DNA from: a virus
DNA length: 31,057 bases
Direction: 5' to 3' (one strand)
Virus record (IMG/VR): IMGVR_UViG_3300025889_000591
Coordinates: 1-31,057 of that record
The notes under the pieces were generated by a model. It saw nothing but the letters and a program-made list of their open reading frames with translations. It was not told where the DNA came from and ran no database searches. Shown here piece after piece: positions 51-31,057 of the stretch. Position numbers and translations under genes: made by a program. How positions within the stretch are numbered: the first letter of the stretch is position 1; every line of letters starts with the position of its first letter.

Positions 51-137
51 GTTCTCCGTTGTTGTTGGGGCGTGATTGCATCCCGGACGCGCTGGCGGCG
101 CGTTTCGGCCCCCGCCGGGGCCTCATCAGCGGGTTAG
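51..137 (-). repeat. Two-hairpin intergenic leader element, copy A
   Basis: On the minus strand this stretch follows the stop codon of the gene at 141-407 and leads into the ribosome-binding site of the next gene. Hairpin 1 (107-122) has the stem GGCCCC/GGGGCC with loop GGCG. Hairpin 2 (87-103) has the stem ACGCGC/GCGCGT with a 5-base loop. A shared tail CCGGGATGC and an AC-rich stretch ending in CAACGGAGAA follow. Copies B (630-713) and C (1253-1342) share this layout; the fourth occurrence, 30940-31026, is the terminal-repeat duplicate. There is no U-run after either stem, so it does not look like an intrinsic terminator. Confidence 0.85.
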
Positions 138-140
138 TTT

Positions 141-407
141 TTACTCAAACCAGTGACAAGTGTTCGGGTATTGCAATTCAAAGTCGATCTCGTTGTCGCA
201 AAAAACGCGTTCAGAAACGATCCACCCTCCATCAATTCGCGTTTTGTATTCGGCGCGCGCATCGTGCGCCCGCAAGCCGTGTGTTTCATTTTTGCGACCT
301 TTGCGATTGATAATGTATACCGTTGAATTACTGACAACGACAAAAGTAGAGTCGAGAATGTCACCAGCTTTGTAGGGTTTCGGGTTTTTCAAAGTATAAA
401 CTTTCAT
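141..407 (-). CDS. Hypothetical early protein, 88 aa
   Basis: The start codon (complement of 405-407) is preceded by CAACGGAGAAAAAAG, the site common to this gene cluster. I do not recognise the product. It begins MKVYTLKNPKPYKAGDIL and reads like a small, mostly beta soluble protein with no membrane segment and no clear motif. It is the first gene after candidate promoter P-L2 (450-478), and its stop codon leads directly into leader element copy A. The gene is therefore probably expressed early in infection from its own promoter. Function unknown. Confidence 0.75.
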   Translation of the reverse strand: MKVYTLKNPKPYKAGDILDSTFVVVSNSTVYIINRKGRKNETHGLRAHDARAEYKTRIDGGWIVSERVFCDNEIDFELQYPNTCHWFE

Positions 408-449
408 CTTTTTTCTCCGTTGTTTTGGCGTCGTTGCCTCTGAGATCGT

Positions 450-478
450 TTATTGCATACATCCTTGAACAAACGCAA
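450..478 (-). promoter_or_regulatory. Candidate leftward promoter P-L2
   Basis: On the minus strand the block TTGCGTTTGTTCAAGGATGT is preceded by an A-rich tract (TAGAAAAAAAACAG). The same 20-base block with a similar A-rich tract occurs upstream of the gene at 1346-1669. TTGCGT (473-478) could be a -35 box. The best -10 candidates here, CAATAA or AATAAA at 17-18 bases, are weak. The A-rich stretch resembles an UP element. Position and duplication argue for a promoter, but the -10 match does not prove it. Confidence 0.5.
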
Positions 479-525
479 GTATTTTTTCTGTTTTTTTTCT
501 ACTTTTTTATAGTGTGTTGTTTTTA

Positions 526-624
526 TTACAAAAACAAAGCCAGCCAACCGACCGCGCCGAGGGCCGCAAACGTGATCAAGTTGCCAAGGTGTTCAATGAT
601 CAAAGCGATCGTTTCTCTTTTCAT
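526..624 (-). CDS. 32-residue membrane miniprotein
   Basis: ATG is the complement of 622-624, 8 bases after GGAG in the leader CAACGGAGAACGAACC. The frame gives 32 codons and a TAA. The product has a charged amphipathic N-terminus (MKRETIALIIEHLGN) followed by one hydrophobic segment, LITFAALGAVGWLALFL, that runs to the C-terminus. It is probably a single-span inner-membrane peptide. It is preceded by leader element copy B and followed by promoter P-L2. I do not recognise a family. Small early membrane peptides in phages can alter host functions, but nothing here shows a target. The ribosome-binding site shared with the neighbours is the main reason to call it real. Confidence 0.65.
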   Translation of the reverse strand: MKRETIALIIEHLGNLITFAALGAVGWLALFL

Positions 625-629
625 GGTTC

Positions 630-713
630 GTTCTCCGTTGTTGTTGGTTGGTAGCATCCCGGACGCTGGCGGCGCAGCGTTTCGGCCCCCGCCGGGGCCT
701 CGTCAGCGGGTTA
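630..713 (-). repeat. Two-hairpin intergenic leader element, copy B
   Basis: The element begins at the TAA stop of the gene at 711-1247 and ends in CAACGGAGAAC before the 32-aa gene. Hairpin 1 (684-699) is identical to copy A. Hairpin 2 (663-680) differs in sequence but still pairs perfectly: ACGCTG/CAGCGT with loop CGCCGC. A different sequence keeping the same fold supports selection on the RNA structure. No U-run follows. Confidence 0.85.
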
Positions 714-1247
714 CGCGTTGACCGAGCGCGCAGCTTGCGCCGCGTCGACGATCTCGCGCTGGCGAATGAAGTGCGCCGCGACGGCTTCGAGGCAATGCCA
801 AAGTTTGAACTCGCGCGCTTCGCCGGGCGTCAAGGGTCGCGCCGGGGCGTCGTCGTCTAACCGCGCGACAAGCTCGGCGGCCCCGGCCTCGTCAAAGCGG
901 CCGTCGACGACCACCGGGATGTAATCGTGATCAAGCAAGATTTCGAGCGTTGAGCCGGTCACCACTTCGGCGCTCCGAATGTTTTCGATCGTCAAGATCG
1001 GCGTTCCGTTGTCGTACCCGGGCGCGCGGCTATGGTCGACCCCTTGCAAGGCGAAAGAGTACGAAACGCCGTCGACGGCGTGCTTTGCAAGGTATTTGTT
1101 GGCCTTGTACTCTTCGTTGAACAGCCAGTCGATCGCCTCGCTCAACAAGTCGATCTTTTTGGTTTTGTAGCCTTTGCGCTCCCGGCGGAGGGCTTGGATC
1201 TCTTCGAGGGCGTCGGCGGCGGATTGCGTGATCTTGATCGATTTCAT
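711..1247 (-). CDS. Hypothetical early protein with RHH-like N-terminus, 178 aa
   Basis: The ATG at the complement of 1245-1247 follows GGAGAATAAACC, the usual site of this cluster. The N-terminus (MKSIKITQSAADALEEIQAL) has a short strand followed by helices and a conserved-looking 'KIDLLSEAIDWL' helix, as in ribbon-helix-helix proteins, but the match is by eye only. The rest has acidic stretches and a hydrophobic 'ILLDHDYIPVVVDGRF' strand region. It has no membrane segment. It lies between leader elements B and C in the early unit. It could be a DNA-binding regulator or an unrelated phage-specific protein; function is not established. Confidence 0.75.
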   Translation of the reverse strand: MKSIKITQSAADALEEIQALRRERKGYKTKKIDLLSEAIDWLFNEEYKANKYLAKHAVDGVSYSFALQGVDHSRAPGYDNGTPILTIENIRSAEVVTGSTLEILLDHDYIPVVVDGRFDEAGAAELVARLDDDAPARPLTPGEAREFKLWHCLEAVAAHFIRQREIVDAAQAARSVNA

Positions 1248-1252
1248 GGTTT

Positions 1253-1342
1253 ATTCTCCGTTGTGTTGTTGGTTGCTTGATTGCATCCCGGACGCGCTGG
1301 CGGCGCGTTTCGACCTCTGCCAAGGTCTCGTCAGCGGGTTAG
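1253..1342 (-). repeat. Two-hairpin intergenic leader element, copy C
   Basis: The element lies between the stop of the gene at 1346-1669 and the ribosome-binding site of the gene at 711-1247. Hairpin 2 (1292-1308) is identical to copy A. Hairpin 1 (1312-1327) is GACCTT-GGCA-GAGGTC. Compared with GGCCCC-GGCG-GGGGCC in A and B, the second pair changes G-C to A-U and the fifth C-G to U-A, and the sixth becomes a U-G wobble. Two compensatory changes plus a tolerated wobble strongly suggest a functional RNA stem. Confidence 0.85.
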
Positions 1343-1345
1343 TTC

Positions 1346-1669
1346 TTAGGCTTTCGACAAAAGCCCCAGCAGTTTTTCGAAGTCTTCGGAGGCTTCGGGG
1401 TGTACTTCCAAAAGTTGATCAAAGTATTTTGGGTCGGAGTTTTTCAGGTCTTCGATAAAACGAGGCATGCATTTGTAGACCTCAGCGAAACGCGCGCGTT
1501 GTGCAATGTAGCAGCGTTTGTGGGTTTTTCCGGTGTCTCGTCTAAAGTCGGCAGTGCGATCCATGATTCCGGCCTTGTTTGTTTGCAGACAAGCGAAAAG
1601 GTTAAACTTTCTGCAAATCATATCCATGATGAAACCCTGTCCGTTTGTGATGATGACTTTCATTTGCAT
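1346..1669 (-). CDS. Hypothetical early protein, 107 aa, first gene of the leftward unit
   Basis: An open frame extends upstream to 1825, but the correct start is the ATG at the complement of 1667-1669, 9 bases after GGAG in CAACGGAGAAAAAAGCC; upstream codons cover the promoter region. The product starts MQMKVIITNGQGFIMDMICR. It contains four cysteines and a basic middle part (DFRRDTGKTHKRCYIAQRAR). The acidic C-terminus ends in EDFEKLLGLLSKA. I do not recognise a family. As the promoter-proximal gene of the early unit it may be among the first phage proteins made. It has no signal peptide or membrane segment. Confidence 0.7.
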   Translation of the reverse strand: MQMKVIITNGQGFIMDMICRKFNLFACLQTNKAGIMDRTADFRRDTGKTHKRCYIAQRARFAEVYKCMPRFIEDLKNSDPKYFDQLLEVHPEASEDFEKLLGLLSKA

Positions 1670-4123: not shown

Positions 4124-4818
4124 TTACACTCGAACAAGCAAACGCCGCCGCCAACGAGGCCGCGCGCCGCTACTACGCCCGGGAGGGTCAACCGTACCAA
4201 GGATGGGGGTCCGACGAATCGACGGCCTCGAAAATGCCGTGGTTTGTGCGTTGTATCAACAAGGCCGCCCGACAAATGCGGATCAAGCCCGGCCTTGGTT
4301 TGTGCGCCCTTTGGGGCCGTTCCATGCAAGAAACCGGCGCGGCTTGGTACGACGTCGAACAAAAGAGCGACGCGCGTTGTGAGGAGCTATATGGCCCGCA
4401 AACGGCCACAGGAAAAAAGCTCGGCAACACGCAACCCGGCGACGGCGCGAAGTACAAAGGCCGGGGCGTTATTCAGGCGACCGGGCGGGCAAACTATACG
4501 AACTTTTCGAACAAGATCGGCGTTGACTTCGTCGACAACCCGGATCGAATCATTGATCCAGAATACGCGTCGCAGTTTATCGCGTGGTATATCGTCGAGG
4601 AAATGCCGCGCCGGTCGGAGTGCTTCCGGTTGCTCGAATGGATCAAAAACGACGAGTTGAGCCTACGCCAGCGAACGCACCGGGTCGCAGCTTGCATCAA
4701 TTGGGGCGAGTATTACCCGTGCCGAAACTACCCGGCCGAAAGCCAGATCCACGGCTTCGACATGACGTTGATCTATGCCGAATCACTGGCGAGCGTTTTG
4801 GGGCTTCGTTATGATTGA
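4120..4818 (+). CDS. GH19-type endolysin (lysozyme/chitinase-like)
   Basis: It hydrolyses beta-1,4 bonds of peptidoglycan to release progeny. The 232-aa product carries the GH19 signature YKGRGVIQATGRANY (residues 112-126) and an upstream MQETGA in which E71 is the likely catalytic acid. There is no signal peptide, so export needs a holin. The ATG at 4120 overlaps the terL stop (ATGA) and follows ACAACGGAGT; the open frame upstream of 4120 lies inside terL. It sits beside the terminase, far from the membrane lysis genes at 24-25 kb. GH19 endolysins are mainly found in phages of Gram-negative hosts. Confidence 0.9.
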   Translation: MITLEQANAAANEAARRYYAREGQPYQGWGSDESTASKMPWFVRCINKAARQMRIKPGLGLCALWGRSMQETGAAWYDVEQKSDARCEELYGPQTATGKKLGNTQPGDGAKYKGRGVIQATGRANYTNFSNKIGVDFVDNPDRIIDPEYASQFIAWYIVEEMPRRSECFRLLEWIKNDELSLRQRTHRVAACINWGEYYPCRNYPAESQIHGFDMTLIYAESLASVLGLRYD

Positions 4819-5959
4819 ACCCCGACTTTTGCGCGGTGATTGCGTCGAGGTTTTGCGCGGCCTCGCCGAAAACAGCGTTGACGCCGTCGTGACCGATCCG
4901 CCCTACGGCCTCGCGTTCATGGGCAAGAAATGGGATTACGACGTCCCGGGCGTCGAGGTTTGGCGCGAGTGTTTGCGGGTACTCAAGCCGGGCGGGTATC
5001 TTCTAGCGTTTGCCGGGACACGAACCCAACATCGAATGGCCGTCAACATCGAGGACGCGGGCTTCGAGATTCGCGACTTGATCGCGTGGGTCTACGGATC
5101 CGGCTTCCCAAAATCGCACGACGTGAGCAAGGCGATCGACAAGGCCGCCGGGGCCGAGCGCGAGGTTTTGGATCAAGGTCGAAGCGGAAAAACTGCGATT
5201 TGGGACAAAAAAGGAACGATGGGATCTTTTGACATAACCGCGCCCGCAACCGAAGCCGCGAAGCAATGGGAAGGGTGGGGAACGGCCTTAAAACCCGCCC
5301 TTGAACCGATCACGGTAGCCCGCAAGCCTTTCGCCGGCACGATAGCCGAAAACGTGTTGACGTGGGGAACGGGCGCGATCAACGTCGACGGGTGCAGGAT
5401 CGAAGCGAACGGTGAAAAAACAGGAAGTAACGGCGCTTTTGGTTTTGATCCAGAAAAAGGATGGAATCAACACAAAATGTCAAAATCGGTCTGCCGAAAG
5501 CAGTCAACGGAAATAGGCCGGTGGCCCGCAAACTTGATCCACGATGGATCCGACGAGGTCAACGATCACTTTCCCGACGACTCGGCGCGTTTTTTCTATT
5601 GCCCGAAAGCCGACAAAGCCGACCGCGACGCCGGCCTTTCGAGGGCGGAGACAAGCGCCGCCGACAAGACAAACCGCCAGCCGGGAAGCGCCGGGATCAA
5701 CCCTTACGCGGGAACAAGAGTACCAAGCCGCAACAACCACCCGACCGTCAAGCCGGTTGCGCTTATGCAATACCTTTGCCGGCTTGTGACTCAACCCGGC
5801 GGCGTTGTTCTTGATCCTTTCATGGGTTCGGGTACAACCGGCCGGGCTTGTCTTGCCGAGGGCTTCGGCTTTGTTGGAATCGAGCGGGATCCCGATTACT
5901 TCGACCTCGCAAGCGAACGAATGCGGCGCGTTCAACTCCCGCTTTTTGGGGGTGTTTAA
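4811..5959 (+). CDS. Site-specific amino-DNA methyltransferase (beta class)
   Basis: It transfers a methyl group from S-adenosylmethionine to the amino group of adenine or cytosine in DNA. The catalytic motif TDPPYG (residues 28-33) comes near the N-terminus. The SAM-binding motif DPFMGSGTTG comes near the C-terminus (335-344), which is the order of the beta class. The 382-aa length fits. The target-recognition part lies between them (about 110-310). The ATG at 4811 overlaps the end of the endolysin gene by 8 bases. Because it is in the late unit it probably modifies progeny DNA before or during packaging, protecting it from restriction. The recognition sequence cannot be told. Confidence 0.9.
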   Translation: MIEPRLLRGDCVEVLRGLAENSVDAVVTDPPYGLAFMGKKWDYDVPGVEVWRECLRVLKPGGYLLAFAGTRTQHRMAVNIEDAGFEIRDLIAWVYGSGFPKSHDVSKAIDKAAGAEREVLDQGRSGKTAIWDKKGTMGSFDITAPATEAAKQWEGWGTALKPALEPITVARKPFAGTIAENVLTWGTGAINVDGCRIEANGEKTGSNGAFGFDPEKGWNQHKMSKSVCRKQSTEIGRWPANLIHDGSDEVNDHFPDDSARFFYCPKADKADRDAGLSRAETSAADKTNRQPGSAGINPYAGTRVPSRNNHPTVKPVALMQYLCRLVTQPGGVVLDPFMGSGTTGRACLAEGFGFVGIERDPDYFDLASERMRRVQLPLFGGV

Positions 5960-8022: not shown

Positions 8023-8878
8023 CGAGCTAACGATCGAAACCGAAGAGTCGTTGAAACGGGTCGCGCGTCAATACCGCCGCCAGTTGCCGCCGCTTCGCGA
8101 CTTTTTGATCGATTGGATACGCAAAAACCGCGACAACGATCGGCTTTTGCGTTCGCAAGTTTCGCTTGAACTTGTCTACGCTTTGATCGACCGGGCGGGT
8201 GTTCGCAAATATTTTGAGTTCGATCCGTTCCTCAACCTCGCGACGCAAACGGCGCTTGAAAAGATCAAGGGCCTCGGCGTCGAGTTCGCCGACGGCCTCG
8301 AAACGCCCTCGTTGCGTGGTTTGGAGGCGGCCCTTGCCGGCGAGGGCGCGGCGTTTCTCGAACAACAAAACGCCGCAAAAGAAACGGCGACGTTGCAGGT
8401 TGCGCGGATCCGCGAAAACATAGCGGCGCAAGTGCGGCAAGTTTTGCTTCAAATGCAAGTTGTCCCGACGCCGCTTTCGGTCGCTGGCGAGCAAATCGCG
8501 GCCGTTTCGAACCTTAGTCAAGGGCAAGCCGAAACGATTGTACGGACGGCTATGTCGGCGCAAGTGCAAAGCATACAAAACGCGGCCGGGGCGCGAATGG
8601 AGGCCGCCGGGGTTGATACAATCGCAATTTTCAGCGGCCCCGACGACGCCCTTGATCGCCCGTTTTGCGACGTTTGCGTCGGCCTCGCGTTTGACAAGCA
8701 ACAGATCTCGCAACTCAACAACAACCAAGGGCTTTCGGTGTTGACGAGTTGCGGCGGGTACAATTGCCGGCACGAATGGATCTGGGTTCCCCGGTCCTAC
8801 CAAGAAAGGCAAGGGATCCGGCAAGCAACAACCAACGACATCAAACGCGCAAACAGCGCGGCCCGGGGGCGCAAGTGA
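8009..8878 (+). CDS. MuF-like (SPP1 gp7-type) head morphogenesis protein
   Basis: It is a minor head protein that associates with the portal. The 289-aa product has a long helical N-terminal part and a C-terminal domain with AETIVRTAMSAQVQSIQNAA, typical of the Mu gpF/SPP1 gp7 group. A cysteine/histidine set follows (C220-x2-C223, C248, C253, H255: PFCDVCVG and SCGGYNCRH) that may bind zinc. It overlaps the portal by 14 bases, the usual gene order. The family takes part in head assembly and in some phages is ejected with DNA. No toxin domain is visible at the C-terminus. Confidence 0.85.
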   Translation: MATLDELTIETEESLKRVARQYRRQLPPLRDFLIDWIRKNRDNDRLLRSQVSLELVYALIDRAGVRKYFEFDPFLNLATQTALEKIKGLGVEFADGLETPSLRGLEAALAGEGAAFLEQQNAAKETATLQVARIRENIAAQVRQVLLQMQVVPTPLSVAGEQIAAVSNLSQGQAETIVRTAMSAQVQSIQNAAGARMEAAGVDTIAIFSGPDDALDRPFCDVCVGLAFDKQQISQLNNNQGLSVLTSCGGYNCRHEWIWVPRSYQERQGIRQATTNDIKRANSAARGRK

Positions 8879-29823: not shown

Positions 29824-30678
29824 TCAATCGAGGTTGATCAAGGTTTTCCATGCAAGTTCAACCACAGCTGGAACCTGTCCGTTTCCAGCTGCTTTGATCC
29901 TGTCCAGTCTATGGGCCACCCCATTAGATACTCGTAAAAAGTCGGATCTAGATTCCCAAACTTGCCGCCGCTGTAGTGTTTCCCGTGTTTTTTGAAGTGT
30001 TCTTTGTGTTGTTTTGTTCTCCAAGGGGGCAAATTTTTGTTTGTGCATATGGTCCCGCTTGTCATGATCATCGCTTCTAAAAAAGAAATTTGACCATTGT
30101 CTACTTTTTTTCTCAACTGTATCATATGGCCTTGATTGTACAGTCCTTGTGCGCATGGTGTGGGCCAAAATCCAGATCCGTTTTCTAACGTGCGGAGCGC
30201 CGGCGTTGTTCGCCCCCACAACACCCCATCGCGCGTCATACCCCATTGCGGCAAGGTCAGCGATGACGACGTCAAGACCTCGGCAAACAAGCAACGGTGA
30301 GTTTTCCACGAACACGAATCGCGGTCGAACTTCGCCGACAATTCGCGCCATTTCCCGCCATAGTCCAGATCTGGATCCGGCAAGCCCGGCCCCTCTTCCG
30401 GCGCTTGATATGTCTTGACAGGGAAACCCGCCCGAAACGACGTCAACAAGGCCTCGCCACGGTCGGCCGTCAAAGGTGCATACGTCAGACCAGATCGGGA
30501 ACGGTTCAAGGTGTCCTTCGTTTTGTCGCCGAACAAGTATGCCTCGGGCGTACTCTTCGATTTCGACGGCGCAAACGGTTCGCCAGCCGAGCAACTTTCC
30601 GCCGAGGATTCCACCGCCGCCCCCGGCAAAAAGCGCGAGCTCTTGGAGGCCTTCAACATCGCTTTTGAGATTGTCCAC
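29824..30678 (-). CDS. dcm: C5-cytosine DNA methyltransferase
   Basis: It methylates carbon 5 of cytosine in a specific DNA sequence. The 284-aa product has motif I (LALFAGGGGGILGG, residues 14-27), motif IV with the catalytic Cys (GGFPCQDIS, C87), motif VI (FVENSP, 123-128), a motif VIII-like RKRIWIL (165-171) and motif X (GNGQVPAVVELAW, 265-277). It is short for the family; the target-recognition part (about 173-250) is small and AT-rich. The start is GTG at 30678, 8 bases after GGAG in CAACGGAGAAAACAGT. Made early, it probably protects phage DNA from restriction. A second frame is open over its whole length. Confidence 0.9.
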   Translation of the reverse strand: MDNLKSDVEGLQELALFAGGGGGILGGKLLGWRTVCAVEIEEYARGILVRRQNEGHLEPFPIWSDVCTFDGRPWRGLVDVVSGGFPCQDISSAGRGAGLAGSRSGLWREMARIVGEVRPRFVFVENSPLLVCRGLDVVIADLAAMGYDARWGVVGANNAGAPHVRKRIWILAHTMRTRTVQSRPYDTVEKKSRQWSNFFFRSDDHDKRDHMHKQKFAPLENKTTQRTLQKTRETLQRRQVWESRSDFLRVSNGVAHRLDRIKAAGNGQVPAVVELAWKTLINLD

Positions 30679-30706: not shown

Positions 30707-30934
30707 TCACCAATTGGGGAAACGATACGCGATTTCTCCCGCCGACGCGCGAAAATAGGAAATGTCGGCTTTGCCTTCTTTTTTCAGTTTGTAGTATGCC
30801 TTATTTGCGAGGCTGGCGGGATCCCACACTTCCGGCTCATCTGACCAAGCCAGTCGGTATTTTGGAAACCTGTTTCGGTAGCCGGGTTGAACACAACGCA
30901 AGTCTTCCTTTGTTTCGTTGATCTCTTTTTTCAT
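30707..30934 (-). CDS. Hypothetical early protein, 75 aa
   Basis: The ATG at the complement of 30932-30934 follows CAACGGAGAACAAGCA at the end of a two-hairpin leader element; the longer frame upstream would cover that element and is rejected. The product starts MKKEINETKEDLRCVQPGYR and contains LAWSDEPEVWDPASLANKAY and a basic helix (YKLKKEGKADISYFRA). It is small, soluble and charged, and I do not recognise it. Its stop codon lies just upstream of the methyltransferase ribosome-binding site. The first 15 codons are repeated at 1-45. Confidence 0.7.
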   Translation of the reverse strand: MKKEINETKEDLRCVQPGYRNRFPKYRLAWSDEPEVWDPASLANKAYYKLKKEGKADISYFRASAGEIAYRFPNW

Positions 30935-31057
30935 TGCTTGTTCTCCGTTGTTGTTGGGGCGTGATTGCATCCCGGACGCGCTGGCGGCGCGTTTCGGCCC
31001 CCGCCGGGGCCTCATTAGCGGGTTAGTTTTTACTCAAACCAGTGACAAGTGTTCGGG
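30890..31057. repeat. Terminal direct repeat, right copy
   Basis: It matches positions 1-168 except for T31016 in place of C127. It contains a further copy of the two-hairpin leader element at 30940-31026, which is the same locus as copy A once the genome is closed into a circle. The mismatch lies in the single-stranded part just before hairpin 1. Confidence 0.93.

Follow-up and report, generated by a model that had tools for sequence, protein, structure and literature searches.

Hammerhead ribozymes are already known to occur in groups within phage DNA. Clustered hammerheads flanking single genes were described in prophages by Perreault et al. in 2011; they cleave in vitro, a triple array around ardA in A. 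tumefaciens cleaves in E. coli as well, and the cutting of long phage transcripts was proposed as their role (PMC3088659). A loop-tail pseudoknot was reported for about 40% of hammerheads (PMC3088659). Later work found hammerheads to be enriched near other ribozymes and Mu-like phage genes, and this 2023 paper called the reason for the gene associations of ribozymes unknown (PMC10085705). An engineered hammerhead is also the basis of RiboJ-type insulators, which normalise the 5' UTR (PMC7536230).

Here we analysed a 31,057-nt stretch of viral DNA (IMG/VR record IMGVR_UViG_3300025889_000591, hereafter the window), in which three copies of a repeated element lie on the leftward (minus) strand between genes called early from their position only. 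Judging from the sequence, the three loci are very probably type I hammerhead ribozymes in a leftward polycistronic transcript, which we propose cut themselves, and thus the transcript, into separate mRNAs. Clustered phage hammerheads and the idea of transcript processing were already published in 2011 (PMC3088659), and the window elements are new members. As in the prophage clusters of that study, several sense-strand hammerheads border individual genes or small groups of genes in phage DNA, long transcripts are proposed to be cut into single-gene or operon-length mRNAs, and a loop-tail pseudoknot may form. Unlike those clusters, the present ones lie in free phage contigs, consist of uniform type I copies, abut stop codons, stand about 34 nt from the next start, reach arrays of 8-10 and coincide with breakpoints of homology. 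Neither arrays of eight to ten that strictly keep the stop-ribozyme-34 nt-start geometry nor homology breakpoints coinciding with hammerheads were found in the open literature, supplements aside. As in RiboJ, a hammerhead stands between the upstream RNA and the ribosome-binding site and would leave a standard 5' UTR; RiboJ differs in being synthetic and in having an extra hairpin ahead of the ribosome-binding site, whereas the cut here would leave an unstructured AC-rich leader (PMC7536230).

Read 5' to 3' on the gene-sense strand, each copy has the order CCCG, CUGAYGA, hairpin 1 (6 bp), GAAA, hairpin 2 between a C and a G, UC, CGGG and AUGC, with the predicted cut between UC and CGGG. The sequence-only reading had placed the three copies correctly and had recognised both hairpins: two copies have GGCCCC/GGGGCC as hairpin 1 and the third has GACCTT/GAGGTC, which differs by two Watson-Crick double changes and a C-G pair turned into U-G, and hairpin 2 is of the GCGC/GCGC or GCUG/CAGC type. 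It missed the 5' strand of a third helix, the CCCG beside the stop codon, and with this strand the element becomes a closed three-way junction. Since CCCG pairs with CGGG, the two form the 5' and 3' strands of stem I, and hairpins 1 and 2 are stems II and III of the junction that it closes (Table 1). Both RNA ends meet in stem I, which is the type I order.

Table 1 Positions of the hammerhead copies, their neighbouring genes and the P elements in the window. Parts are listed 5' to 3' on the gene-sense strand
Feature	Position	Strand	Details
Hammerhead copy A	1287..1338	(-)	RF00163 28.5 bits; CCCG 1338-1335; CUGACGA 1334-1328; stem II 1327-1312, loop GGCA; GAAA 1311-1308; stem III 1307-1293; U16.1-C17 1292-1291; predicted cut 1291/1290; CGGG 1290-1287; next to it on the 3' side, a UGC tail that could pair with loop II
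Hammerhead copy B	658..710	(-)	RF00163 23.6 bits (identical copy in L007); stop TAA 713-711 directly followed by CCCG 710-707; CUGACGA 706-700; stem II 699-684; GAAA 683-680; stem III 679-664; UC 663-662; predicted cut 662/661; CGGG 661-658
Hammerhead copy C	82..133	(-)	RF00163 22.0 bits; CCCG 133-130; CUGAUGA 129-123; stem II 122-107; GAAA 106-103; stem III 102-88; UC 87-86; predicted cut 86/85; CGGG 85-82
Duplicate of copy C at contig far end	30971..31022	(-)	match region 30963-31025
107-aa gene	1346..1669	(-)	upstream of copy A; no Pfam or PHROG match
178-aa gene	711..1247	(-)	between copies A and B; no Pfam or PHROG match
32-aa gene	526..624	(-)	after copy B
88-aa gene	141..407	(-)	upstream of copy C
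75-aa gene	30707..30934	(-)	downstream of copy C; start also at position 45 in the repeated contig end
Intercistronic element P1	1679..1745	(-)	TTGCGTTTGTTCAAGGATG ... GGCAACGACGCC ... CAACGGAG; no hammerhead
Intercistronic element P2 (second copy)	415..480	(-)	upstream of the 88-aa gene

The invariant core bases were complete in all three window copies: CUGANGA joins stem I to stem II, GAAA joins stem II to stem III, whose closing A15.1-U16.1 pair is invariant across 24 aligned copies, and the cleavage-site base H17 is a base other than G with the 3' strand of stem I after it. Across 93 copies the cleavage site was UC in 88 and UA in 5. A three-helix arrangement around the core, open at stem I, emerged from folding, from covariation and from the unbiased pattern test described below; the MFE and centroid structures of copies A, B and C, and of a copy in the related contig L201, were exactly the hammerhead three-way junction. 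The pattern CTGANGAG..CGAAAC..GTCCGGG occurred only at these three places in 31 kb and not once in 100 dinucleotide shuffles, and a motif finder with stem checks returned the same three places. Within 1.3 kb, three sense-strand hammerheads flank genes of one transcript.

Rfam at its curated gathering threshold returned nothing for the window. With the threshold off, RF00163 (Hammerhead_1) was the best Rfam match on the correct strand for copy A (E=2.3e-4) and for copy C alone (E=0.0014); copy B was scored through its identical twin in L007. All three fell short of the curated gathering score of 34 bits, which is an inclusion threshold and not a structural feature, and none of the 21 phage records searched exceeded it. 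The copies share with RF00163 the core, the stem order and the opening at stem I, and differ from it in score (22-28.5 bits), in a 4-bp stem I and in longer stems II and III. Weak Rfam matches to CRISPR-DR22 (504-535), srg1, SNORA13, atoC and Trp_leader were set aside as sub-cut-off, low-complexity or chance. BLAST of copy A against named phages gave chance-level matches only (E 0.6 or more).

The evidence for the element is core conservation and covariation, not folding energy, which is unusable here because the copies are GC-rich and their z values unremarkable (-0.94 to +0.17). For the pairing, the fair test is a scan with an unbiased pattern, rather than an alignment of selected copies; this pattern demands the core, the CGGG strand and the opening base pairs of stems II and III, and leaves free the stem I 5' strand CCCG and the bodies of stems II and III. 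All three stems were present in 68 of the 81 distinct viral-contig matches and in 4 of the 118 bacterial-genome matches, with CCCG upstream in 69/81 and 5/118, respectively, so nearly all phage matches are real and nearly all bacterial ones chance. The 114 bacterial matches that lacked the full stem set were treated as chance.

Alignment of 24 copies (A1) revealed double changes in 9 of 15 pairs, with 56 double-change cells against 12.5 in shuffles and a covariation of 0.467 against 0.111 (shuffled) and at most 0.101 (slid versions). Pairing was kept in 359 of 360 pair cells (99.7%), a figure inflated by the fact that rows were picked partly by pairing; the pairing percentages of the 100-copy context set are inflated likewise, since a motif finder that demands pairing supplied both sets. 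Row choice does not inflate the diversity of pair types in A1. Substitutions that break pairing as often as they keep it had been named beforehand as counter-evidence, and these cells do not bear it out. Within the three closest phages alone the stems vary in concert (14 double-change cells, 99.4% paired), and in L201, whose helicase is 80% identical, all three stems are altered (CCCA/UGGG, GACUCU/AGAGUC, CAC/GUG) with the core kept. In three near relatives, as in about 90 other phage copies, the stems carry compensatory substitutions around a constant core. The RNA-level function, sense-strand placement and compensatory changes put forward in the sequence-only reading are supported, and the covariance-model search of relatives that it had set as a test found copies at gene junctions.

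Loop II and the tail 3' of stem I may also pair. Over the whole set the mean pairing score was 7.57, compared with 6.38 when permuted, and lay above all 500 permutations (maximum 6.92), with pairs such as UUGGC/GCCAA, UUGAC/GUCGA and GUGGC/GCCAC. The window copies pair GCA or GCG with UGC (GCR/YGC, with one G-U pair in two copies), and variation in the nearest relatives is one-sided only. As this tertiary contact is just 3 bp in the window copies, their cleavage rate is uncertain.

Given these features, we considered whether the hammerhead folds now serve mainly as stable hairpins, which protect 3' ends or offer landing sites for RNases or other proteins, with cleavage slow or absent. The strong GC-rich stems, the short tertiary contact and one copy with a G5A core change would suit such a role, yet it predicts drift of CUGANGA, GAAA and UH, and the core was intact in 93 and variant in 1 of the 94 strong-stem hammerheads, a count to be read with the fact that most contigs were found via at least one intact core. 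The additional copies found next to such a core are free of this bias. Moreover, stems and loops vary freely while the core stays, and we regard this explanation as unlikely. Stabilisation or protein binding, both raised in the sequence-only reading, are less likely than self-cleavage because of the hammerhead catalytic core, which that reading had overlooked; its suggestion that the element may process the early mRNA is supported.

The G5A change lies in the terminal duplicate of copy C. Positions 1-168 and 30890-31057 of the window differ at a single base (127 C / 31016 T) and are otherwise the same stretch, which makes the contig circular or terminally redundant. The differing base turns CUGAUGA into CUAAUGA (core G5 to A), which is predicted to cripple cleavage in the duplicate. 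The near-identical contig L007 carries the intact base at this position, and the difference reflects either an assembly error or a variant in the population whose ribozyme is dead.

Position relative to genes was examined in 100 unique copies, with genes called by a simple ORF caller on metagenomic contigs. An ORF of at least 60 codons ended -1 to +7 nt from stem I in 65 of them, compared with 3.6% at random positions and 15/100 on the opposite strand; in a further 20 copies the UGA of CUGANGA is itself the in-frame stop, which is partly built in by the motif. From the predicted cut to the next start codon with a Shine-Dalgarno-like sequence the median was 34 nt (43, 37 and 40 nt for copies A, B and C in the window, to the starts of the 178-aa, 32-aa and 75-aa genes). 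Stop and start occurred together in 79 of 100 copies vs 10.8% at random. The element was always on the gene-sense strand, and this geometry was fixed alike across many unrelated phage contigs.

Copy number was three in the window, three to four in its relatives and 8-10 in other phages, where the arrays approach one hammerhead per gene. L075 (5983-12703) consists of eight successive ribozyme-gene units of 246-563 nt with exactly one gene each, the genes starting 27-35 nt after the cut and ending 0-2 nt before the next ribozyme; in one unit the gene stop is the core UGA of the next ribozyme. L079 (5084-9607, minus strand) holds ten copies in about 4.5 kb and L019 (1334-6900) eight in about 5.5 kb. 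These unrelated contigs with 8-10 intergenic type I hammerheads have no annotated relatives among named phages; BLAST of three arrays other than the window's against named phages found none except for a 34-nt match.

Closer to the window, the same kind of array was found in L007 (near identical to the window), L005 and L006/L200. The neighbouring replication genes are nearly unchanged in these contigs (helicase 99-100% identical) and the small genes are rearranged. Gene order, with HHR for hammerhead, is P-107aa-HHR-178aa-HHR-32aa-P-88aa-HHR-75aa-methyltransferase in the window, 49aa-HHR-254aa-HHR-178aa-HHR-32aa-P-107aa-HHR-72aa-65aa in L005 and P-107aa-HHR-178aa-HHR-32aa-P-144aa-88aa-HHR in L200. 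Genes between the elements had no known domain in Pfam or PHROG, save a DNA cytosine methyltransferase further downstream. The 31-kb phage carries two DNA methyltransferase genes of different kinds, at 4811-5959 (plus strand) and 29824-30678 (minus strand); counted downstream from copy C, the latter is the second gene, and L005 and L200 lack it there. No tRNA genes were found in the window. More distant relatives (61% helicase identity) have no copy of the element, which is thus not essential to this kind of phage.

Local alignments between the window, L005 and L200 begin and end at a hammerhead, a CAACGGAG leader or a P element. The AC-rich stretch with CAACGGAG, earlier taken as part of the repeated element, proved to be the ribosome-binding leader of nearly every gene in the leftward cluster, with or without hairpins, and is likely to be, being near-identical, a homology patch for cassette exchange. 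The P element comprises an A-rich run, TTGCGTTTGTTCAAGGATG, the small hairpin GGCAACGACGCC and the leader, with further copies in L005 (7678) and L200 (6567 and 7824). By position it looks like a phage-specific promoter, and no good sigma-70 -10 box was found in it. In L005 (about 8375-8420) and L200 (about 8316-8361) the leader is preceded by TAA(C/T)CCGCC(A/G)CAACTGGCGACAACAAC, which may be a reduced hammerhead consisting of stop codon, short hairpin and leader with the core deleted. In T4-like phages, PeMobs are mobile regulatory cassettes that pair a promoter with a terminator-like hairpin. The present elements are similar to PeMobs in being repeated, intercistronic and at the borders of shuffled early genes, and unlike them in that one class consists of ribozymes, with the promoter-like element forming a class of its own.

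These breakpoints, together with about 95 nt of sequence common to several junctions of one genome, would also fit mobile or recombinogenic DNA repeats that serve early-gene shuffling, the RNA fold being incidental. Such repeats would leave the compensatory changes and the invariant core, which demand selection on RNA, unaccounted for, as well as the constant gene-sense strand, and the leader without a hammerhead is likewise a breakpoint; we hold this explanation to be very improbable. Transcription terminators or attenuators are scarcely credible, for despite stable GC-rich hairpins directly after stop codons there is, as the sequence-only reading had stated, no U-run in any copy, the distance to the next start stays the same across stems that differ greatly in strength, and terminator and sigma-70 scans called none of the three, with counts close to shuffles.

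To return to self-cleaving hammerheads, they most likely serve, as the sequence suggests, to cut the RNA during its transcription into mRNAs that mostly hold one gene and begin with a short, uniform 5'-OH leader. Each ribozyme would fold once transcribed in the leftward polycistronic RNA, and the cut would fall between C17 and CGGG, shortly after the upstream stop codon and 37-43 nt ahead of the following start; we infer the catalysis, the cut behind C17 and the end chemistry from known hammerhead chemistry. The long mRNA would be split at chosen junctions, in the window into single-gene or short multi-gene pieces. A downstream piece would carry a 5'-OH, CGGGAUGC, the AC-rich leader and the CAACGGAG ribosome-binding site, and an upstream piece would end in stems II and III, two strong hairpins, with a 2',3'-cyclic phosphate. 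The 5' monophosphate-dependent entry of RNase E works poorly on a 5'-OH end, and E. coli seems to be without a kinase that efficiently phosphorylates the 5'-OH end made by a hammerhead (PMC4191395). Possible benefits would be translation uncoupled from the neighbour gene, stabilised pieces and genes shuffled without loss of expression. As the stop codon adjoins stem I and the core or overlaps with them, a ribosome terminating there would sit on part of the ribozyme, and cleavage may, speculatively, depend on ribosome traffic.

Since the standard Rfam scan overlooks the whole set, phage hammerheads are under-annotated. We tentatively suggest that in some phages rows of hammerheads might act as natural insulators: each gene of an accessory or early region would sit in its own stop-ribozyme-leader cassette, receive the same short 5'-OH leader regardless of what lies upstream, and be swappable at the ribozyme or leader without disturbing expression. 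The fixed geometry, together with shuffling at the elements and leader, makes both processing into single-gene mRNAs and insulation testable statements.
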